A model generated the notes under the pieces. That model had not been told where the DNA came from and did no database searches. It worked only from the letters and a program-made list of their open reading frames with translations. The translations under genes were made by a program, and so were the position numbers. From assembly GCA_022450585.1 (NCBI GenBank), contig JAKUPR010000016.1, positions 1-33,044 on the forward strand: DNA of 33,044 nucleotides, given 5' to 3'. Positions 3,951 through 31,110 of this stretch are shown piece after piece (within the stretch, counting starts at the first letter, position 1; every line of letters starts with the position of its first letter). The stretch is from Anaerolineales bacterium (GTDB taxonomy: Bacteria; Chloroflexota; Anaerolineae; Anaerolineales; UBA11657).

Positions 3951-5720
3951 TTGACATTAATTAAGAAGGTTTACAGGATCATTAAAGGGCACCGACTTTT
4001 GATGGCAGGTTCAGTCATCTGTGGACTTCTGTTCGCAGGCACTAATCTCATTCCGCCCTTACTCATTCGCCAGCTGATTCAATGGATAACCGAAGCTAGC
4101 GCAGACTCGTCCGACCTCATCCGCGTGACGTTCGCTCTTCTAGGACTCTATTTGATAAGGGGTGCAACGCGATACGGGTATGGATATTTCTCACATGTCA
4201 CTGCATACCGAGTGATGCATAATCTTATGGTCCGTGTCTACAGACATATGCAGCGCCAACCTCACCGTTTCTTCAACTATAAGCAAACCGGCAGCCTTAT
4301 CTCTGCGTCTATCAATGACATCGAATCCGTAGAGGACTTTATTGCGCACGGTATCCCGGAGACCATACTGGCCACCATCCTTCCGTTTTCGATGATTGTA
4401 GTACTATTTGTACTCAACCCACAACTTGCTCTGATAGTACTCGTGCCAATTCCATTGGCGTCTTGGCTTGTATATCGCTATTTATCACGGGCTCGCCGAA
4501 TGTGGCGTGTTATTCGTGAGAACTTGGCCAATCTCGTAGCCCTAGTTCAAGATAACCTTTCAGGTATTGCAGTGATAAAAGCATTCTCACAGGAGAATCG
4601 CCGGGCAGAACTCGTCGAAGAAAAAAGCATGGGCTTCCGGGACGGGATGTTACGGGTGAGCCTAGTCGGGCAGCTACCCATGGGAATCATTGAGTTAGCA
4701 GGCGGATTAGGTATTGTCCTCGTTATATGGATGGGCGGTAGTATGGCACTTATCGGACATACTACTGTCGCCGATCTGTTTGTTTTCATTGTATATATGG
4801 GTCATATCTACCAGCCCTTTCTAACACTTGCATCAATCAATGACGTCCTACAGAAAGCCGCTGCAAGCGTCGATCGTGTGTTCGCGCTGCTGGCTGAGAA
4901 ACCAGATATAGTTGATCCTCCTGGGGCACTAGTACCCCACAATGTAGACTTCAGCATCGCCTTTGATAAAGTCACGTTCGGATATGAACCGGATGCCACT
5001 ATTCTGCACGAAGTCACGTTCGATGTGTCGCCCGGTGAAATAGTCGCACTTGTTGGCCCAACAGGGGCAGGCAAGACTACTATCTCAGCCTTGATTCCCC
5101 GTTTCTGGGATGTCCAATCTGGAACCGTTACGGTCGCCAACCATGATGTCCGGACCTTGCAGCTAGAATTCCTACGTAGAAACGTTGCATCCGTCCTTCA
5201 GGATGTGTTTCTGTTCCATGGTACCGTGCTCGAAAACGTCCTGTTCGGCAGGCCGGAAGCTAGCAACCACGAAGTCATCGACGCAGTTAAGGCAGCAAAC
5301 GCCGAGGAATTTATAATCAATCTACCCGATGGTTTTGAAACAGTCGTCGGAGAACGGGGAGTACGCTTGTCTGGAGGCCAGAAGCAGCGTCTATCCATCG
5401 CACGAGCGCTCCTTAAGGATGCGCCTATCCTTATCCTGGACGAGGCAACCTCCTCGGTCGACGCAGAAACTGAATCACTTATTCAGGAGGCCATAACTCG
5501 ACTAGCTAGTAACCGCACCTCCGTAATTATTGCCCACCGCCTCTCCACCATCCGTAGCGCGGATAAGATTATCGTGCTCGACGATGGACGTATCGTCGAG
5601 TCAGGTACAAACCACGCACTGATGGCAGCGAATGGCCTTTATGCCCGTATGGTGCAAAGCCAGGATCTCAATCGTGACTGGCGTATTCACCGTGACGTGG
5701 ATGAAATTGTGACGTATTGA
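3951..5720 (+). CDS. ABC transporter, fused permease and ATP-binding (MsbA/MdlB-like exporter); TTG start
   Basis: Walker A GPTGAGKTT, signature LSGGQKQRL, Walker B ILILDEATS, H-loop IIAHRLST; N-terminal TM domain. Confidence 0.93.
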   Translation: MTLIKKVYRIIKGHRLLMAGSVICGLLFAGTNLIPPLLIRQLIQWITEASADSSDLIRVTFALLGLYLIRGATRYGYGYFSHVTAYRVMHNLMVRVYRHMQRQPHRFFNYKQTGSLISASINDIESVEDFIAHGIPETILATILPFSMIVVLFVLNPQLALIVLVPIPLASWLVYRYLSRARRMWRVIRENLANLVALVQDNLSGIAVIKAFSQENRRAELVEEKSMGFRDGMLRVSLVGQLPMGIIELAGGLGIVLVIWMGGSMALIGHTTVADLFVFIVYMGHIYQPFLTLASINDVLQKAAASVDRVFALLAEKPDIVDPPGALVPHNVDFSIAFDKVTFGYEPDATILHEVTFDVSPGEIVALVGPTGAGKTTISALIPRFWDVQSGTVTVANHDVRTLQLEFLRRNVASVLQDVFLFHGTVLENVLFGRPEASNHEVIDAVKAANAEEFIINLPDGFETVVGERGVRLSGGQKQRLSIARALLKDAPILILDEATSSVDAETESLIQEAITRLASNRTSVIIAHRLSTIRSADKIIVLDDGRIVESGTNHALMAANGLYARMVQSQDLNRDWRIHRDVDEIVTY

Positions 5721-15523: not shown

Positions 15524-16381
15524 TCACCCTGCCCGCTCAACCGCTGCTGCTACAGCACGCCGCACGTATACAGGCGCCATAGCTCGACGGTAGTCAGCGC
15601 TAGCATGAATATCACCCAGGACGTCGGAGCCCAGGTCATTTTGGACAGCCTCAGCGGCAGCCGCGATGGAAGTCTCCTCCAGCTTCACCCCCACTAGACT
15701 ATCCGCTACTGATGAAGCAACCATTACAGACGGAGTCAGTCCGCCCAATACAACACTAGCTTCAGTACACTTTCCAGACGCTACAGTCACAACTGCAGCA
15801 ACGCCAACCATAGCATAACCAGAGGCAGGATTGAATAACTTGGAGTACGCTGAACCAGTACCAGACTGCTCATCAGCAACTTCCACTGCAGTTAGAATCT
15901 CGCCATCCTCAAGATCAGTCTCAAACATACCAGTAAAGAAATCTTCTGCTGATACTGTACGATTCCCTGTAGGGCCGGATATGTGAAAGGATGCGCGCAG
16001 CGCTACAAGCATGGTAGGTAAGTCAGCGGCTGGGTCTGCGTGGACGACACTTCCACCTATAGTGCCCCGGTTTCGTACCTGCTGATCACCCACCGTGCCA
16101 GCTGTCTCAGACAGCCCTATCGGTACAACTATTGACGCTGCCAAGTCCGAGTGTGTAGTTAGACCACCAATAGTGACAGCACCTTTACTTGCATTAATTC
16201 CATGGAGGTCGTCGATCTTACCAATGTCAATCAGGACACCCGGATCCGACAAGCGCAATTTCATAGCCGGTATTAGACTATGGCCACCAGCCAAAACTTT
16301 GGCCCCATCATGCTGATTTAGCAGAGAAATAGCTTCAGACACAGAACTAGCTTTGTGATATTCGAAATTGAATGGATACAT
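15524..16381 (-). CDS. FAD-binding subunit of a CO dehydrogenase/xanthine dehydrogenase-family hydroxylase (CoxM-like)
   Basis: MYPFNFEYHKASSVSEAISLL...AGGHSLIPAMKLRL, RNRGTIGGSVVHADPAADLP. Confidence 0.92.
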   Translation of the reverse strand: MYPFNFEYHKASSVSEAISLLNQHDGAKVLAGGHSLIPAMKLRLSDPGVLIDIGKIDDLHGINASKGAVTIGGLTTHSDLAASIVVPIGLSETAGTVGDQQVRNRGTIGGSVVHADPAADLPTMLVALRASFHISGPTGNRTVSAEDFFTGMFETDLEDGEILTAVEVADEQSGTGSAYSKLFNPASGYAMVGVAAVVTVASGKCTEASVVLGGLTPSVMVASSVADSLVGVKLEETSIAAAAEAVQNDLGSDVLGDIHASADYRRAMAPVYVRRAVAAAVERAG

Positions 16382-20655: not shown

Positions 20656-21579
20656 ATGTGCGGCATAGCGTGTTATTTGACGAAAATCAATGGAGACCGT
20701 GCCCCAGTCGGGAACAAGGTCCTACATATGCTGAATGCACTTTCGCTACGTGGTCCGGATTCAGCCGGGGTGGCATTGTATGGGCCTCGCTCAAAACACT
20801 TGCTTTTACAGGTGAAGTTGGTAGACACATTAGGTGAAGCAGAGAGCAATAATCTACAGGAACTTGCTGACCACATAACCAATGTTGTAGGTAAAACTGC
20901 GGACATTGCGGAAGTTTCTAGGACGGCCGAATATTTGCGGTTGAAAGTAAGCTTTGGGGGTGATCCAAAGACCTTGGAAAGACATATAGAGTCTGCAGAC
21001 AAAGAAGTCGAAGTACTAAGCATGGGATACAGTCTGGAAATCACAAAGCAAGTCGGGTCACCAGTAAATCTCGACAGCACCTACCACCTAGATGATTTCT
21101 GTGGTTCACACGGAATAGGCCACACACGTTTGTCAACCGAATCGAGCATTGATCTCAGCCATTCGCAACCCTTCTGGTCCCACGGTAATCCTGATCTCGC
21201 CATCGCACATAATGGGCATATTACGAATTATCGCAATCTGAGGTGCAAGTACGAACAAAATGGATTCCACTTTTATACACAGAACGACTCAGAAATCATC
21301 GGGGTATATATTGGAGAGAAATTGTCAATGGGCATGACATTAGCGGAAGCTATGCACGCCTCACTACGAGATTTCGATGGCTCATTCAGCTATCTTGCTG
21401 CGACTGAGGACTCTGTAGGATTCGCCAAAGATCCCTTCGGCTTTAAACCACTTCTGATGACGGAAACTGATGGATTTGTAGCGATAGCAACCGAAGAATT
21501 AGCAATCAGAGCAGCCTTCAAGGGTAATTACAACGTTCATGAGGCACCAGCCGGTGAAGTACAAGCATGGCAACTATAG
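20656..21579 (+). CDS. mgsA: N-methylglutamate synthase subunit A (class II glutamine amidotransferase, GlxB-like)
   Basis: MCGIACYLTKING with Cys2 nucleophile, LRGPDSAGVALYG, GIGHTRLSTES, LAIAHNGHITN. Confidence 0.85.
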   Translation: MCGIACYLTKINGDRAPVGNKVLHMLNALSLRGPDSAGVALYGPRSKHLLLQVKLVDTLGEAESNNLQELADHITNVVGKTADIAEVSRTAEYLRLKVSFGGDPKTLERHIESADKEVEVLSMGYSLEITKQVGSPVNLDSTYHLDDFCGSHGIGHTRLSTESSIDLSHSQPFWSHGNPDLAIAHNGHITNYRNLRCKYEQNGFHFYTQNDSEIIGVYIGEKLSMGMTLAEAMHASLRDFDGSFSYLAATEDSVGFAKDPFGFKPLLMTETDGFVAIATEELAIRAAFKGNYNVHEAPAGEVQAWQL

Positions 21580-22277
21580 ACTGCTTCGACAAAACAGTCC
21601 GAGATGTTAATACCAAGCTCAGGGATTTTGTTTCTGGGGGTAAAAATGATATTCACATCATTAACCCAGAATCGCTACACAATCTGGCCGTCGCGATAAC
21701 TAAAGCTGCCAACATAACGATTGACGGTAGCGTTGGATATTATTGTGCTGGAATGATAGATGGTCCAACTATTAGGATCAACGGTAGTGCTGGATGGGGA
21801 CTCGCCGAGTCGATGCTAAGCGGCACTGTCAGAGTAAACGGAAGCGCTGGTAACGGTGCTGCGGCAGCAATCCGCGACGGCACCGTAATTATAGAAGCCG
21901 ACGCGGCGGCCAGGCTTGGTGTTTCAATGAAAGGCGGGCTAGTACTAGTTGGTGGTAACTGTGGTTACATGGCAGGTTTCATGGGCCAAAAGGGCACGCT
22001 GATTGTCTGCGGAGATGTTGGTGCTGGATTCGCAGACTCAATGTATGAAACGGTATGTTTCGTTGGAGGAGAAATAGCAGAACTCGGCACTGATGCTATC
22101 ATCGAGAAACCTACTGAAGATGAGTACAGCTACTTATCTCGCACCCTCACTTTGCACCTACCAACAAAGATGGAGGCACCTGGTTTTGCTATTGATCGGT
22201 TCAAGAAAGTGATTTCTGGACGCAAGCTATGGAACTTCGATAATCAGGATTGGGAGACTTGGAGAGAGGCTATGTAG
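21567..22277 (+). CDS. mgsB: N-methylglutamate synthase subunit B (GltB C-terminal GXGXG-domain protein)
   Basis: Repeated G-rich beta-helix units GSVGYYCAGMIDGPTIRINGSAGWGLAESMLSGTVRVNGSAGNGAAAAIRDG; overlaps mgsA by 13 bp. Confidence 0.85.
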   Translation: MATIDCFDKTVRDVNTKLRDFVSGGKNDIHIINPESLHNLAVAITKAANITIDGSVGYYCAGMIDGPTIRINGSAGWGLAESMLSGTVRVNGSAGNGAAAAIRDGTVIIEADAAARLGVSMKGGLVLVGGNCGYMAGFMGQKGTLIVCGDVGAGFADSMYETVCFVGGEIAELGTDAIIEKPTEDEYSYLSRTLTLHLPTKMEAPGFAIDRFKKVISGRKLWNFDNQDWETWREAM

Positions 22278-23639
22278 ATGTCTAACGAACAAGATATTAA
22301 CCAGCGCTTGCTACAGCAGAGTAGCACTTTCAATAGTCAAGTCATCGATGATATCCAATCCAAGGCAGAGCTCGGTCGCTATCGTATGCGTGGCTATGGC
22401 ACACTGAGGCAACGCACCTGGGCAACATTTGATGACTTAACGTTCATACCCTCGACTCTAACCAGAATTCCTCTAGAAGGGTATCGTGAACGTTGCAAGA
22501 CGAAAACGATTCTCGGCAGCAGATACGCGAAAAAACCAATTGAACTAGAGATTCCGATCATGATTACGGGAATGAGTTGGGGAGCACTATCCTTCAACGC
22601 AAAAGTGGCGCTTGCAAAAGGAGCTGCCAAGGTCGGTTCCTCCAACACTACCGGTGATGGCGGTATGTTACCTGCCGAAAGAGAAAATAGTAAAGTCCTG
22701 ATTTACGAAGTGTTGCCATCTCGTTATGGGATAAATGTACACGACTTGTTGTCCGCTGACGGAATAGAACTCACTATCGGACAGGGAGCAAAACCGGGAA
22801 CTGGGGGCTTGTTGTTGGGAAGCAAAGTTAGGGAAAGCATAGCTGGACAACGTGACTTACCAATTGGAGTTGATCAGCGCAGCCCCGCTAGACACCCGGA
22901 TTTCCTTGGTCCCGACGACATGCGCATCAAGATCGAAGAACTCCGTGAAGCAACAGATTGGAAGGTGCCAATTTTCGTAAAGATGGGTGCTTCGCGCGTT
23001 TTTGATGACGTACGCCTAGCGGCTAAGGCTGGCGCAGACGTAATAGTAGTAGATGGAATGGAGGGTGGTACAGCCGCTTCACCCGAAATAATGCAGGAGC
23101 ATACCGGAACCCCTACCCTTGCGGCTGTTTGTGAGGCCCGTGCTGCGCTAGAGGACATCGGATTGTACGGCGATGTTCAGCTAATTATTGCTGGTGGCAT
23201 CCGCAACGGAGTGGATGCAGCAAAAGCAATAGCTTTAGGTGCAGATGCCATCTATATAGGTACAACAGCTCTGATAGGCCTGAATTGTAATAAGCCGATT
23301 TACACTGAGGACTACCACAAGCTAGGCACAGAACCATATCACTGCCACCATTGTCACACAGGCGGATGCCCTGTCGGAATCACCACACAGGATCCTGAAC
23401 TAATGAAACGCCTCGACATTGCGGAGGGAGCGGAAAGAATCTCCAATCTATTACTTGCCATGACGTATGAAATCCAAATGCTTGCGCGAGCATGTGGCAA
23501 GGCCAACATACACAATCTTGACCCAGATGATATGCGGGCACTTTCTCTAGAAGCATCAATGATCTGTGGTGTACCCCTGGTGGGCACCAACAAGGTGTTC
23601 AGTGATGGACCTGGATGGAAGAGCAAAATTGGTAAATGA
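22278..23639 (+). CDS. mgsC: N-methylglutamate synthase subunit C (FMN-binding glutamate-synthase-like)
   Basis: MITGMSWGALSFNAKVALAKGA, VDGMEGGTAASPE, IIAGGIRNGVDAAKAIALGADAIYIGTTAL, Fe-S Cys motif CHHCHTGGCPVGITTQ. Confidence 0.9.
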   Translation: MSNEQDINQRLLQQSSTFNSQVIDDIQSKAELGRYRMRGYGTLRQRTWATFDDLTFIPSTLTRIPLEGYRERCKTKTILGSRYAKKPIELEIPIMITGMSWGALSFNAKVALAKGAAKVGSSNTTGDGGMLPAERENSKVLIYEVLPSRYGINVHDLLSADGIELTIGQGAKPGTGGLLLGSKVRESIAGQRDLPIGVDQRSPARHPDFLGPDDMRIKIEELREATDWKVPIFVKMGASRVFDDVRLAAKAGADVIVVDGMEGGTAASPEIMQEHTGTPTLAAVCEARAALEDIGLYGDVQLIIAGGIRNGVDAAKAIALGADAIYIGTTALIGLNCNKPIYTEDYHKLGTEPYHCHHCHTGGCPVGITTQDPELMKRLDIAEGAERISNLLLAMTYEIQMLARACGKANIHNLDPDDMRALSLEASMICGVPLVGTNKVFSDGPGWKSKIGK

Positions 23640-23694
23640 CACAATGAATATTGTGTGCAAAATCTTGTACAGAGAAGTCAATGCATAGAGTAGA

Positions 23695-25041
23695 TTGAGG
23701 AGACCATTTATGACACTGGATACAGCAAGAAAACTTGTCCAAGAGAAGAGTGTGGATTTCTTTTTATGTTCCTTTGTAGAAATGAGTGGGACACCCAAAG
23801 CTAAATTAGTTCCAGCGGCTCACCTAGAAACGATGGCGGTCGAGGGAGCAGGATTTGCCGGATTTGCTGCTGGTGAAATCGGTCAGAGCCCGCATGACCC
23901 TGACATGGCTAGTATCCCAGATTTTAATTCTCTTACCGTTGTTCCTTGGCGCAGCAACGTTGCATGGGTTGCGGGAGATATCGTGGTTAACAATGAGGAG
24001 TGGCCCTACTGCCCACGGACAATATTGCGAAGACAACTAAAGAAATGTGAAAACCAAGGTTACAATGTCAACATCGGAGTAGAAGCTGAGTTCATGCTCT
24101 TGAAACAAGATGAGAGAGGCAATTATTTTCCTTGGGACGCATTGGACACCTTGGGAAAACCATGCTACGACTTGCGCACATTACATCGCAACCTAGATAT
24201 AATGACCACGTTGCTTAGGTATATCCAAGAAATGGGATGGTACCCTTACGCAAATGACCACGAGGACGCCAACTGTCAGTTCGAGATTAATTGGCGCTAT
24301 GCAGATGCTCTTACCACAGCTGATAGACATACATTTTTCAAATGGATGGTGAAAACTGTAGCCGAAGAAACGAATCTCATGGCTACTTTTATGCCAAAAC
24401 CATTTCAGAACATGACCGGCAATGGAGCACATTGCCACATGAGTCTCTGGGATGGCAACGATGCTAATATGTTCTTGGATGAGCAAGATGAGAACGGACT
24501 TTCTCAGATTGCATATTGGTTTGTCGGTGGCATCCTGCAACACGCCCAGGCACTCGCCGCGCTCACCAATCCCATCGTGAATAGTTATAAACGCCTTGTT
24601 CGTGGCGCTCCTCGCTCCGGCGCGACATGGGCCCCTGTATACGTAACTTATGGAGGCAGTAACCGCTCACAAATGATACGCATTCCTGGACCAGGGGACA
24701 TAGAATGCCGTACACTCGACGGTGCAGCCAATCCCTATCTTGCAATCGCCGCTATGATTGCCGCAGGATTGGACGGCATCGAGAACAAAATTGATCCGGG
24801 AACTAGAAACGACGACAATCTTTACGAGGTACCTGATACCGAAATACGGCAGCGTGAAATTGGTTACCTGCCAACAACATTAGATGAGGCGTTAGATCAC
24901 CTCGAACAAGACGATGTAGTCAAAGAGGCCCTTGGGAACACTTACGCGCAATACTATATTAATGTTAAACGCGACGAATGGCAGCGATATAACCTAAGTG
25001 TGAGCCAATGGGAGAAAGACAACTACTTGGAGGTGTTTTGA
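23695..25041 (+). CDS. gmaS: Gamma-glutamylmethylamide synthetase (glutamine synthetase type III-like)
   Basis: VDFFLCSFVEMSGTPKAKLVP, GVEAEFMLL, GNGAHCHMSLWDG, RLVRGAPRSGATWAPVY; GS fold, with specificity assigned from the mgs/mgd context. Confidence 0.83.
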   Translation: MRRPFMTLDTARKLVQEKSVDFFLCSFVEMSGTPKAKLVPAAHLETMAVEGAGFAGFAAGEIGQSPHDPDMASIPDFNSLTVVPWRSNVAWVAGDIVVNNEEWPYCPRTILRRQLKKCENQGYNVNIGVEAEFMLLKQDERGNYFPWDALDTLGKPCYDLRTLHRNLDIMTTLLRYIQEMGWYPYANDHEDANCQFEINWRYADALTTADRHTFFKWMVKTVAEETNLMATFMPKPFQNMTGNGAHCHMSLWDGNDANMFLDEQDENGLSQIAYWFVGGILQHAQALAALTNPIVNSYKRLVRGAPRSGATWAPVYVTYGGSNRSQMIRIPGPGDIECRTLDGAANPYLAIAAMIAAGLDGIENKIDPGTRNDDNLYEVPDTEIRQREIGYLPTTLDEALDHLEQDDVVKEALGNTYAQYYINVKRDEWQRYNLSVSQWEKDNYLEVF

Positions 25042-25177
25042 AGTCCAGTTCCCCAACAAGATCTAAGAAATGCAAATCCCAACAGCAGTGTTTCTCAGCA
25101 ACGTTCTGTTAATGGCAAACTCCAAAGATTGTTTGAAATACGCTATTGACATTACGGTTGACATTCGCGCAACCTGA

Positions 25178-26416
25178 ATGTCAATTAAACTGGTGCGGCA
25201 GGCATTGCAAGGGAATCGGCCAATGTCGCGAATGTGGCAAGTTCACGAACTAAGAGATCGCTACGATGCCGTGATTATAGGCGGGGGAGCACACGGTCTT
25301 TGCTGTGCTTATTACCTCGCGTCAGAACACGGTATCAATAATGTGGCTGTTCTAGAAAAACGCTATATAGGCTCTGGCGGCAGCGGGCGCAACACTGCCA
25401 TTGTACGGAGCAACTACCTGACGCCAGCCGGGGTCCGCTTCTACGATGCTAGCCTGAAGCTTTACGAGCGCATGGCCGTCGAGCTGGACATAAACGTAAT
25501 GCTGAGCCAGCGCGGACACATAACACTTGCCCACAACGACATCTCCTTACGAACGATGCGTCGACGCGCCGAAGTCAACCGCTTGCAGGGCGTAGAATCT
25601 CGCCTCATCCTTCCAGACGAAATAAAACAACTTTGTCCCGTTCTGGATGTCAGCGACCGACCGCGTTACCCTATTATCGGCGCACTCTATCATCCACCTG
25701 GTGGAATCATCCGCCATGATGCAGTAGTGTGGGGATATGCGCATCAGGCAGATGCCCATGGCGTGCATATTCACCAGATGACCGAAGTCACCGGCATAGA
25801 AGTGTCTGGCGCAAAGGTCACTGGAGTGAAAACGAATCGGGGACAGATCAAGACTGAAACCGTATTAAACGCTACAGCCGGGTGGTGCTCAACCATTTCC
25901 GCTATGGCGGGTCTCAGGCTACCAGTGATTACCTCGCCTCTGCAGGCAGCTGTAACTGAACCACTCAAACCGTTTCTAGACGTGGTGGTAGTCTCTGGTA
26001 GCCTCCATGTATATGTCAGTCAGTCAGACAGGGGCGAATTGGTAATGGGAGCCAGTGTTGATCCATTTCCCTCATACTCATCACGTGGTTCGCTTGATTT
26101 TGCCGAAAGCCTAGCAAGCCACATTATAGAACTGATGCCAGGTTTGCAGCGCGTACGTCTAATGCGTCAGTGGGCCGGCATAGTCGATATGACCCCAGAT
26201 TACAGTCCAATTATGGGATTCACGCCAGTAGAAGGATTCTTCGTTGATGTAGGCTGGGGAACATACGGTTTCAAGGCATCACCAATTGCAGGCAAGATGC
26301 TGGCAGAATGCATCGCCACTAAGCGTACACCTGATTTAATTACACCTTTCAGTCTCTCTCGTTTTAATGAGTTTGATCTTATGGGAGAAGCAGGGGCTGC
26401 TTCAGTTGGCCACTGA
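25178..26416 (+). CDS. mgdA: N-methylglutamate dehydrogenase subunit A (sarcosine oxidase beta/SoxB-like)
   Basis: DAVIIGGGAHGLCCAYYLASEHGI, SGGSGRNTAIVRSNYLTP, GGIIRHDAVVWGYAHQADAHGV, WAGIVDMTPDYSPIMG. Confidence 0.88.
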   Translation: MSIKLVRQALQGNRPMSRMWQVHELRDRYDAVIIGGGAHGLCCAYYLASEHGINNVAVLEKRYIGSGGSGRNTAIVRSNYLTPAGVRFYDASLKLYERMAVELDINVMLSQRGHITLAHNDISLRTMRRRAEVNRLQGVESRLILPDEIKQLCPVLDVSDRPRYPIIGALYHPPGGIIRHDAVVWGYAHQADAHGVHIHQMTEVTGIEVSGAKVTGVKTNRGQIKTETVLNATAGWCSTISAMAGLRLPVITSPLQAAVTEPLKPFLDVVVVSGSLHVYVSQSDRGELVMGASVDPFPSYSSRGSLDFAESLASHIIELMPGLQRVRLMRQWAGIVDMTPDYSPIMGFTPVEGFFVDVGWGTYGFKASPIAGKMLAECIATKRTPDLITPFSLSRFNEFDLMGEAGAASVGH

Positions 26417-26441
26417 AAGTTAATTGATTAGGAATAGAACC

Positions 26442-26711
26442 ATGCTTATTCTCAAATGCCCGAATTGTGGCCAACGAAATGTCAGCGAGTTTCGAAATGG
26501 GGGCGAATATAGGCCAAGACCATCCCGGCCACTTGATGCGGACGACCAACAATGGTCAAACTACGTATTCTTCCGTCACAATGTTTCTGGTCTGCAAAAG
26601 GAATGGTGGTATCATCGCAATGGGTGCGGACTATGGTTTTTAGCGGAACGACATACCAAGACCAACGAGATACTGTCAACTTTTCGTTGGGGGCCAGATA
26701 GAACAGAGTAA
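26442..26711 (+). CDS. mgdB: N-methylglutamate dehydrogenase subunit B (SoxD-like small Zn subunit)
   Basis: MLILKCPNCGQRNVSEFRNGGEYRPRP...WYHRNGCGLWFLAERHTKTNEI; Zn ligands C-x2-C and H-x3-C. ORF track uses an upstream TTG (26424). Confidence 0.87.
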   Translation: MLILKCPNCGQRNVSEFRNGGEYRPRPSRPLDADDQQWSNYVFFRHNVSGLQKEWWYHRNGCGLWFLAERHTKTNEILSTFRWGPDRTE

Positions 26712-26712
26712 T

Positions 26713-29700
26713 ATGTCAAATACACTACTCTTTGTCATAGTAATCGGTGCTACATTGATGTTGGTAATAGGTGGCGCTGTCACTATAGCGATTACGCTAT
26801 ATCGAGCAAATCGGTTGATAGTTTCAGAGGTTGTATTGCCACATCTTGAAAAAGTGATGGGCGCACGATTACCATCGCAACCCGTCGAATTAATCAACCG
26901 TAAGGAAGAGATGCGCTTTACCTTTGAAGGCAATGAATACTCGGCCTTCAAAGGAGATACTATTGCATCAGCTCTAGCGGCTTCGGGGATAAAGATATTC
27001 AGCCGATCATTCAAATATCACCGACCGAGAGGTTTGCTTTGCTGCTCAGGTCACTGCCCGAATTGCCTTGTCCAGATTGGAGATGAGCCTAACGTCCGCG
27101 CCTGTCGCCAGCGCGTGGCTCCCGACATGATTGTCAAGCCACAGAATGTCACCCCGACTCTGATGTGGGATCTGCTTGCACCGATCATGCGCTTTCTTTC
27201 TCCATTTATGCCAGTGGGTTTTTATTATAAAACCCTCTATCGTCCGAAGTGGATATGGAAAGTTGCCGAACCACTGCTCCGCGCGGCAGGCGGACTCGGT
27301 AAGGCAAGTCACTCAGAAAGTCCGGAAGACACTTTTGACAAACAATACTTGCACGGTGATGTCGTTGTGATAGGCGGCGGTCCTACTGGCATCAGCGCAG
27401 CACTCAGCGCAGCCGGGTCTGATGCAAAGGTACTGCTAATCGATGAGAACGACCAACTTGGCGGATATCTTCGCATCAAGGCAGAAGCCAAGGATGTAGT
27501 TGACGAATTGTGTGCATCTGTGTATGCACATCCGAATATCCAGACTCTTACTGAGACAACAGTGACAGGGTGTTATGACCATAATTGGCTAGCTGCCACG
27601 CACGGGGATAGACTGTACAAAATAAGGGCAGATAAAGTGGTGCTGGCTACAGGAGTAGTTGAGCGACCGCTTGTATTCGACAACAATGATCTGCCAGGTG
27701 TTATGCTTGGCAGCGCAGCGCAGTACTTGTTACATTTATATGCAGTTAGACCGGGTCGCCGTGCTGTGGTAGTCACTGCTAATGATGATGGCTGGGATGT
27801 AGCGGCTGATTTGCATGCTGCCGGAATAGAAGTGGTAGCACTGGCAGATGAGAGAGAACGTGCTGCATGCAGCAGTGCCAAAATGGAATCGCTAGAAGCA
27901 GAATTGCCCGTGTTCTGGAGACACATCGTGACTTCGGCACACGGAAACACGGCGGTGAATGCGGCCACAATCGCTCCTCTTGAAAGTGATGGTAGTCTCA
28001 CAACCCGCCGCACCAGATTAGAATGCGATTTGCTGCTAGTTAGTATAGGATGGACTCCAAACACCGGTTTAGCATATCAAGCTGGCGTCGAGTTTGGTTA
28101 TGATGAGGATCGAGCAGAATTGATGGCTCGGAATATGCCTGATGACTTCATTATTGCTGGACGAGCGGCAGGAACACATATGCTAGAACACCAAATTACT
28201 GAAGGCGCACTAGCAGGTCGCAGGATGGCCTCTGCCGCTGGGTACGGCGATGCACCTACAACATCTGAGTGGACTTTCGTACAGGAAGAAAAGAAACGCG
28301 AAGTAACGCGCAGCTCGCAACGCACCATTGTGAAAGGATCAAGTAAAAGGTTTTTGTGCTATTGCGAGGATGTTACTGACAAAGATCTTACTACTGCTGT
28401 TGCTGAGGGATACGATAGTATTGAGCTACTGAAGAGATACAGCACAATCTCAATGGGGCCATGCCAAGGGAAGATGTGCTCGATGAACGCCGTACACCTG
28501 TGTGCGCATGCTAATACGTCCACCGTGGACGAGACTGGCAGTACCACTACGCGCCCGCCTATGACACCGATTTCACTTGGCGCCCTTGCAGGGCAGAATA
28601 TGGAGCCTGTGCGGATAACACCTATTCACGATTGGCACTTGGGCCAGGGCGCAAAGATGATGGTGGCCGGTCTATGGCTACGCCCAGAGCATTATGGCAA
28701 CCCCACGGAGGAGGTTCGTGCGGTACGTGAGCGTGTAGGCGTCATAGATGTGAGTACTCTAGGCAAATATAAACTGACCGGACCACACGTACCTAACATT
28801 CTGGAGAAGGTGTACACAAATCGTTGGCGGCAATTGGCCGTGGGACGGGTGCGTTATGGAGTAATGTGTAATGCAGAAGGCATTGTCATTGATGATGGTG
28901 TCACTGCTCGTTTTGATGAACGCGAATGGTACATGACCACCACCTCCGGAGGTGCTGGTGCAATTTACGAATGGATACAATGGTGGATGCAATCAGGATG
29001 GGGAGACGGGGTACAACTAATCAACCGCTCTGACGATTTTGCCGCATTTAATCTTGCAGGACCAAAGGCACGCACTCTGTTGAAGGAATTAACTGATATA
29101 CAGCTTGACAACAAAGAATTTCCTTACATGCACGTGCGTTCCGGAGTAGTAGCTGAAGTTCCATGTAGATTATTGCGCATTGGTTTTACCGGCGAACTAT
29201 CATACGAGATACATTGCCCTGCGAGTTATGGCCAACATCTCTGGGAGCAATTGTTACAAGCGGGAGAACAGTTTGGGATTATGCCATTCGGAGTAGAAGC
29301 ACAGCGCGTACTGCGTCTAGAAAAGGGACATCTTATTATCGGTCAAGACACTGATGCTCTCTCAAATCCGATTGCCGCGAACCTCGAATGGGCAGTAAAA
29401 CTTGAGAAAGATGACTTCCTCGGACAACGGTCATTATTGCGTGTGGTAGAAAACGGGCTCAAACAACGGCTTATCGGCTTCAAAGTTAACGAAACTGGAC
29501 CGACACCCGAGGAAGGGCTGCAAATCGTAAGTATAAATTCGAATAGCAAACAGCGGAAAATAATCGGTTGGGTCAGTTCCTGTCGCTTCAGCCCAACTTT
29601 GAACCAGGTAATCGGTCTCTGTTGGCTGCCTACTGAGATTGCTGATGTCGACGGTGCCGAATTCATCATTTGGAGGGAGGAACGGGCCCTAACTGCACAT

Positions 29701-29751
29701 GTTCATCACGGTGCATTTTACGACTCGAATGGAGCACAACTACGTAGTTAG
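26713..29751 (+). CDS. mgdC: N-methylglutamate dehydrogenase subunit C (SoxA-like) with N-terminal TM extension
   Basis: Fer2_4-type N-domain, GDVVVIGGGPTGISAALSAA FAD/NAD domain, CYCEDVT...GPCQGKMC domain, C-terminal GcvT-like folate domain; hydrophobic N-terminus LLFVIVIGATLMLVIGGAVTIAITLY. Confidence 0.9.
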   Translation: MSNTLLFVIVIGATLMLVIGGAVTIAITLYRANRLIVSEVVLPHLEKVMGARLPSQPVELINRKEEMRFTFEGNEYSAFKGDTIASALAASGIKIFSRSFKYHRPRGLLCCSGHCPNCLVQIGDEPNVRACRQRVAPDMIVKPQNVTPTLMWDLLAPIMRFLSPFMPVGFYYKTLYRPKWIWKVAEPLLRAAGGLGKASHSESPEDTFDKQYLHGDVVVIGGGPTGISAALSAAGSDAKVLLIDENDQLGGYLRIKAEAKDVVDELCASVYAHPNIQTLTETTVTGCYDHNWLAATHGDRLYKIRADKVVLATGVVERPLVFDNNDLPGVMLGSAAQYLLHLYAVRPGRRAVVVTANDDGWDVAADLHAAGIEVVALADERERAACSSAKMESLEAELPVFWRHIVTSAHGNTAVNAATIAPLESDGSLTTRRTRLECDLLLVSIGWTPNTGLAYQAGVEFGYDEDRAELMARNMPDDFIIAGRAAGTHMLEHQITEGALAGRRMASAAGYGDAPTTSEWTFVQEEKKREVTRSSQRTIVKGSSKRFLCYCEDVTDKDLTTAVAEGYDSIELLKRYSTISMGPCQGKMCSMNAVHLCAHANTSTVDETGSTTTRPPMTPISLGALAGQNMEPVRITPIHDWHLGQGAKMMVAGLWLRPEHYGNPTEEVRAVRERVGVIDVSTLGKYKLTGPHVPNILEKVYTNRWRQLAVGRVRYGVMCNAEGIVIDDGVTARFDEREWYMTTTSGGAGAIYEWIQWWMQSGWGDGVQLINRSDDFAAFNLAGPKARTLLKELTDIQLDNKEFPYMHVRSGVVAEVPCRLLRIGFTGELSYEIHCPASYGQHLWEQLLQAGEQFGIMPFGVEAQRVLRLEKGHLIIGQDTDALSNPIAANLEWAVKLEKDDFLGQRSLLRVVENGLKQRLIGFKVNETGPTPEEGLQIVSINSNSKQRKIIGWVSSCRFSPTLNQVIGLCWLPTEIADVDGAEFIIWREERALTAHVHHGAFYDSNGAQLRS

Positions 29752-29753
29752 AC

Positions 29754-30416
29754 ATGAAAGAAGCCCTGCGACGTTCTCCATTACATAATACGTTACAGGA
29801 TGTTGGCACGGGATTAGAGGTGCGCTCTGGATGGCTAGTAGCTACAGGACTTGTATCTGCTACAGATGCTGCGGTCCCAATGCTGACGATTGCCGACGAA
29901 AGCGCGCACGGTAAATTGCTGTTGGAGGGGGAGAACGCTTCAGATGTGATCGCCACAGCGATGCACTTACATCCACCAAGTGTAGGATTGAGCGTTCCAT
30001 ATAGGACGGGGAGGGTTTATTCACTTAGACCCGATTTGTTTTTCATGTCCACTTTGCCAACAATCGATAGTGAGTGGGTCAAACAACTGCGAGCGACCGC
30101 AGCCAGAAACGAAGGGTTAGTCACCATGACGGATATGACTGATGGCAGATCACAGATTCGCGTGACAGGCAAAGTATGCCGACAATTTCTAGCAAAGCTG
30201 TGCGCACTTGATTTCGGAGATTTTTCTTTTCCAGATGGAAGTGCACGAACAACTAGTCTAGCCAGAACAACACAATTAATCCTACGCTCCGACCAACACG
30301 ACCAGTTGTCCTTTGTTGTTGTGGGCGGACGGTCGCTGGGTGCCTACGTATGGGATACAATGGTTCAAGCTGGGCACGAGTGGACTATCACACCCACGAT
30401 GTGTGAATCCGATTAG
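29754..30416 (+). CDS. mgdD: N-methylglutamate dehydrogenase subunit D (SoxG-like)
   Basis: Immediately follows mgdC; 220 aa SoxG-like protein (MKEALRRSPLHNTLQDVG...SDQHDQLSFVVVGGRSLGAYVWDTMVQAG). Confidence 0.75.
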   Translation: MKEALRRSPLHNTLQDVGTGLEVRSGWLVATGLVSATDAAVPMLTIADESAHGKLLLEGENASDVIATAMHLHPPSVGLSVPYRTGRVYSLRPDLFFMSTLPTIDSEWVKQLRATAARNEGLVTMTDMTDGRSQIRVTGKVCRQFLAKLCALDFGDFSFPDGSARTTSLARTTQLILRSDQHDQLSFVVVGGRSLGAYVWDTMVQAGHEWTITPTMCESD

Positions 30417-30660: not shown

Positions 30661-31110
30661 TTAGGAGTCGAGAAACTCGTCAAAGGCATCCCTGAAGGAC
30701 TCATATTTTACGATACCAGACCATTGTTCGATGATTAAGCCATCCTCATCAAGCAATGTGAAGTGAGGGCGATAGGTGAAATTCACAGCTTTCAACAGGC
30801 TAGCTGTGTTAGAGTCGTCCATATCTAAATATACAAACTTCATACGGTCAGCAAATTCATCCTCTAGCCCGTGAACCACGGGCAGCATCTGTCGGCAAGA
30901 CCCTCAGTAGCGGGAATATATCTTTACCAGTTGAGGCTTACCGGTAGCCAATTTCACGGTACTAGGATCAGTAGCTCTGAATTCTACGTCCAAGGCATCA
31001 GACATTTCTCTAAGATCTTGCAAATTTTCGCCACTAGTATTACATGCACTCAGCAACATAGTGACAATGGTCGCTAAAATCACAGTAGGATTAACTCTTC
31101 TGTACATCAT
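30661..31110 (-). CDS. Thioredoxin-like lipoprotein, candidate selenoprotein (UGSC active site; in-frame TGA at 30904-30906)
   Basis: Two track ORFs (30904-31110 and 30661-30888) lie in the same frame separated only by TGA: ...KPQLVKIYSRY-U-GSCRQMLPVVHGLEDEFADRMKFVYLDMDDSN...; lipobox LLSAC. Confidence 0.7.
30864..30885 (-). promoter_or_regulatory. SECIS-like hairpin
   Basis: mRNA sense CU-GCCCGUG-GUU-CACGGGC-U-AG: perfect 7-bp stem (30867-30883) plus two pairs across a bulged U; loop starts 28 nt after the UGA with G first. Confidence 0.55.

Follow-up and report, generated by a model that had tools for sequence, protein, structure and literature searches.

An order-wide family of thioredoxin-like lipoproteins in Anaerolineales with a probable selenocysteine at the catalytic site

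Among the characterised prokaryotic selenoproteins is a selenocysteine (Sec) thioredoxin (Trx, PF00085) with a UxxC active site (PMC13188914, PMC9312934), and the earlier note on this DNA was therefore right that Trx-like selenoproteins of this type are already known. The bacterial SECIS element is a hairpin located immediately 3′ of the UGA, with a small apical loop that holds a G (PMC1088965). Further points of comparison are the membrane-anchored thioredoxins of the TlpA, ResA and CcmG types, of which B. japonicum TlpA reduces ScoI and COX II (PMC6696091), and the Prx-like proteins, from which the UxxU motif is known (PMC2398784). Here, we analysed a 33,044-nucleotide stretch of an Anaerolineales genome (contig JAKUPR010000016.1; hereafter the window), in which one gene is the starting point for a new subfamily within the known UxxC thioredoxin selenoproteins; a published description of this subfamily was not found in the literature searched. 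Like the Sec Trx, the window protein belongs to PF00085, is predicted to carry Sec in place of the first Cys, and has a bacterial SECIS just past the UGA. Unlike the Sec Trx, it is a lipoprotein precursor that has diverged below the NCBIfam cut-offs, and its family has an order-wide distribution and encodes the SECIS within a conserved P-x-V-H-G-L segment. The family also resembles the TlpA, ResA and CcmG types in being a putative extracytoplasmic anchored thioredoxin with SCO1 linkage in three genomes of the host's family, but differs from them in that its best match is a plain thioredoxin rather than AhpC-TSA/redoxin and in the predicted Sec at the catalytic site.

The gene lies on the minus strand (30661-31110), running from an ATG at 31110 to a TAA that ends at 30661, and encodes a 149-residue thioredoxin-like lipoprotein that is predicted to contain Sec. 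Re-reading the sequence bore out the earlier description of a frame with a single in-frame TGA, no frameshift and no other stop. The precursor begins with a putative lipoprotein signal peptide read from the sequence (31042-31110; MMYRRVNPTVILATIVTMLLSAC), which includes MLLSAC, with the lipobox LSAC and Cys23 as the predicted lipidated residue. The TGA (30904-30906) falls in the motif KIYSRY-U-GSC-RQM, where homologue comparison places Sec69 as the first redox residue of U-G-S-C; the codon for the resolving Cys72 follows at 30895-30897. Both Cys72 and Pro115 (30766-30768) are invariant in alignment A1, and Pro115 occupies the thioredoxin cis-proline position, the role of which it would share to judge from its fold family. 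That the TGA stands where a thioredoxin CxxC has its first Cys, as had been proposed, agrees with the homologue alignment and with a PF00085 match over residues 57-140 (E 3.8e-10; 40.2 bits against a gathering score of 23.5), and the family profile matches PDB thioredoxins with E down to 3e-15. The more specific models do not reach their cut-offs: the TrxA equivalog TIGR01068 scores 31.0 bits against 96.8, the TlpA, ResA and DsbE equivalogs score 19-21 bits against 123-230, and none of the NCBIfam thioredoxin or selenoprotein models is at cut-off for the window protein. An AlphaFold2 single-sequence model of the protein was useless (pLDDT 36.6), no Rfam family matched the window above its gathering threshold, and scans of genome contigs and viral contigs with the single protein as query returned no close relatives and one plain Cys thioredoxin.

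Gene context provides a rationale for the function of some family members. In two genomes of the host's family (G004 and G009), the Sec thioredoxin directly follows SCO1/SenC, with frames overlapping by a few codons, and in G004 a PCuAC gene lies upstream of the pair; the same order of PCuAC, SCO1 and Sec thioredoxin occurs in G002, with SCO1 and PCuAC assigned by sequence similarity. The arrangement in these three genomes resembles an operon with the thioredoxin gene at its end. This SCO1 linkage, together with the reduction of ScoI and COX II by TlpA, makes a copper-site reductant the likeliest role. Such a TlpA-like reductant would be fed by a CcdA/DsbD-type membrane reductase and would maintain the cysteines of the copper chaperones SCO1 and PCuAC, or of further extracytoplasmic proteins, in the reduced state, and the window protein may work like TlpA even though it lies outside the TlpA equivalog. 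The host genome encodes a CcdA and TlpA-like gene pair, as well as a SCO1 gene beside a PCuAC-like gene elsewhere in the genome, with no thioredoxin adjoining. The copper role may not fit the window copy, because this gene has no SCO1 beside it, stands alone with unrelated sarcosine-oxidase-like and aldolase genes as neighbours, and groups in the tree with the copies of G005 and G007, apart from the SCO1-linked ones. For the window copy we therefore hold a part in copper-site assembly, drawn from gene context and the analogy to TlpA, to be a tentative possibility. There is about an even chance that the selenoprotein is instead a general extracytoplasmic thioredoxin that serves peroxide or methionine-sulfoxide repair or general disulfide reduction. 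Such a role is consistent with the neighbourhood, which varies over the order, several copies adjoining a TlpA-like/redoxin gene and lgt while others, the window copy included, sit beside unrelated genes; it is harder to reconcile with the SCO1 linkage in three genomes of one family and with a heavy-metal-domain neighbour at another locus (L010). On the plus strand, the window also contains a gene series (20656-30416) similar in make-up to the N-methylglutamate pathway for methylamine utilisation, which comprises glutamine amidotransferase, FwdC-like, glutamate-synthase domain, glutamine-synthetase-like, and sarcosine-oxidase-like beta, alpha and gamma genes.

Decoding UGA as Sec depends on dedicated machinery, and the earlier note had proposed to look for selA, selB, selC and selD in the host genome. 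Three of the four were found above curated cut-offs: selA (525 bits), selB (329 bits) and selD, the last with a UGA in its own active site (CAGUASK). The fourth, the tRNA-Sec gene selC, was not found in the host assembly, which is 87.5% complete; all RF01852 matches there are below cut-off, and the eight that were checked are tRNA-Ser, Leu, Gly, Trp, Tyr and Asp by anticodon. Three genomes of the same family (G002, G006 and G009) do have selC, flanked by tRNA-Phe, -Gly and -Cys and by a gene whose sequence suggests an M50-type protease. This protease has no match in the host assembly, and the tRNA cluster used as a probe gave only weak matches there, to a tRNA-Gly with a different anticodon and to a tRNA-Met. 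Since the conserved neighbours of selC are missing too, the host's selC neighbourhood apparently falls in an assembly gap. In a genome of the same genus (G001), the first 84 bases of one contig match selC at 89%, a fragment that ARAGORN did not call; as the match begins at the first base of the contig, this selC appears to be cut by the contig end. Separately, host contig 62 encodes a second UGA-containing membrane-anchored thioredoxin (L002:31-447; EYULAC), with relatives in G001, G002, G003 and G006 and its own hairpin in the same register.

The UGA could in principle be read as another amino acid, through a reassigned code (Trp or Gly) or programmed readthrough. We consider this very improbable and reject reassignment of the code, given that the host has selA, selB and selD, that a hairpin tracks the UGA, that where this codon is not UGA it specifies Cys, or in one paralogue Ser and in another Ala, and that ordinary genes of the window terminate at TGA. 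The last observation upholds what had been noticed from the sequence, with TGA-terminated reading frames ending at 5720, 20412, 23639, 25041 and 26416 and, on the minus strand, spanning 1018-2223 and 15524-16381.

The protein with its UGA read through was used as a query against 150 related genomes, and homologues turned up in most families of the order. Forty-six genomes, the host included, have a homologue with TGA at codon 69; they span many families of one order, and in the alignment every TGA-bearing copy has the codon exactly at this residue. The remaining homologues have TGT or TGC there, apart from one Ser paralogue, one Ala paralogue and a frame-broken copy. In a 31-sequence alignment, column 69 contains only Sec or Cys, which answers the question of whether the position is Cys or Sec elsewhere, and residues G57, C72, P77, L82, F92, Y94, D96, D99, P115, G124 and G132 are invariant. 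Across 14 homologue pairs, dN/dS 3′ of the TGA is 0.01-0.30, a signature of purifying selection which indicates that the region past the UGA is translated and useful. The disabling mutations in relatives that would mark a pseudogene did not appear, with the exception of a frame break in one genome; TGA, protein and SECIS are otherwise kept. That exception (L025, in G003) is broken at the UGA site, and it is probably an assembly error because family sequence runs on in both frames. Two paralogues (L080 in G120; L096:1289-1732 in G060) replace the catalytic residue by Ser or Ala and also lack the second Cys (SGPS, APDS). Both genomes own a Sec copy too, which in G060 directly adjoins the paralogue, and the Ser/Ala proteins are likely redox-dead partners. 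The idea that the window gene is a CxxC thioredoxin whose Cys codon became TGA, by a nonsense mutation or through an error of base calling or assembly, draws on the missing selC and on the origin of the contig in an incomplete draft, but the cross-genome pattern refutes it and leaves it with a negligible probability: sequencing errors could not have put TGA at the same codon of 46 genomes, purifying selection persists beyond it, and the downstream hairpin covaries.

That hairpin (30867-30883, minus strand) reads GCCCGTG-GTT-CACGGGC, with a stem formed by nt 21-27 and 31-37 after the UGA and the apical loop GUU, whose G is nt 28 (30876). A fold of 60 nt yields the same helix (-21.3 kcal/mol for the whole 60 nt), in agreement with the 7-bp stem and 3-nt loop described earlier at 21 nt past the UGA; a bulged U with flanking pairs below the stem, also described, is not conserved among homologues. 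By position, small loop and G, the window hairpin is a bacterial SECIS core. Its conserved stem consists of nt 21-26 paired with nt 32-37, the seventh pair (27-31) occurring only in the GTT-loop version. Of 44 distinct Sec homologues, 40 have the full 6-bp stem and all 44 the G at nt 28; among 17 Cys homologues, one has a full stem. When synonymous codons were redrawn from the family's own usage in 2000 trials, complete stems averaged 1.09 with a maximum of 6, against the 40 observed, and within-column synonymous-codon shuffles gave a mean of 239 and a maximum of 246 paired cells against 258 of 264. Two-sided changes (G-C/A-U, C-G/U-A) occur at four of the six stem pairs. Among 39 sequences, the covariation score of 0.288 exceeds the shuffled value of 0.161 (0 of 500 shuffles as high) and the at most 0.107 of slid registers, and 98% of cells are paired in the true register versus 7-47% in registers shifted by 1-3 nt. 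It is scarcely credible, and statistically refuted by the resampling and shuffling, that the hairpin is accounted for by the conserved peptide P-[IVM]-V-H-G-L alone: although the P, V, H and G codons fix several stem bases and two pairs never vary, synonymous resampling and shuffling break the stem, and the Cys homologues of genus g11 keep the VHGL peptide yet lose it.

The TGA shared by 46 genomes, the purifying selection, the SECIS covariation the presence of selA, selB and selD and the second UGA thioredoxin of the host back the selenoprotein interpretation with which the earlier note began, and judging from sequence the window locus is very probably a functional selenoprotein gene whose UGA would be translated as Sec. 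In the mechanism that we propose, the mRNA would carry the SECIS hairpin within the coding sequence just 3′ of the in-frame UGA; SelB with Sec-tRNA-Sec would bind this hairpin, and the ribosome, which would otherwise stop, would insert Sec at residue 69. The protein would presumably be exported and lipidated at Cys23, and its UxxC site would make it an extracytoplasmic thiol/disulfide (selenenylsulfide) oxidoreductase of the thioredoxin fold.

A comparison of genome lists indicates how the use of Sec varies within the family. In every one of the 46 UGA-bearing genomes selA, selC or both are present, whereas nine genomes of genus g11 (family f9), which have Cys copies only, lack the two genes; eight other Cys-form genomes retain Sec machinery. 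The Sec and Cys labels cluster on the tree, suggesting that the switches were few independent events. The sole Cys homologue that keeps the stem (L107, in G116) is sister to the Sec copy of G123 with 100/96 support, and its hairpin is apparently a fossil SECIS left after a Sec-to-Cys change, the direction being the one we infer on an unrooted tree.

In family f10, five loci (L122, L123, L124, L125 and L126, in G018, G043 and G055) encode thioredoxin-like lipoproteins with two in-frame UGAs in a W-U-x-T-U motif. Their hairpin, CCCGUC-GUG-AACGGG, is unchanged in its register to the first UGA, and the one f10 UxxU lipoprotein that was scored matches PF00085. At three of the five loci (L124, L125 and L126), a second UxxU protein with the motif HLAULPUQ is encoded nearby, and the L124 copy matches the SelL-related redox protein NF040769 above cut-off. 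The f10 lipoproteins thus share a double-Sec motif with the SelL-type/Prx-like proteins, and their genomes carry SelL-related genes, but the lipoproteins themselves belong to PF00085 and are homologous to the window gene, not to SelL/AhpC-TSA. We think it probable that the f10 site changed from UxxC to UxxU, so that two Sec residues would be served by one SECIS in a putative diselenide lipoprotein, apparently undescribed for PF00085; no UxxU thioredoxin was found in the selenoprotein reviews consulted.

Automatic gene callers split or truncate a gene of this kind, so that many annotations probably omit or mislabel a redox protein that occurs across an entire order. The family may tie selenium to copper-oxidase assembly. 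It also offers a set of natural Sec/Cys switches, with Cys accompanied by loss of selA and selC in genus g11, a fossil SECIS in G116 and UxxU in f10, and through these switches one can test directly why selenium is retained or lost in a redox enzyme.
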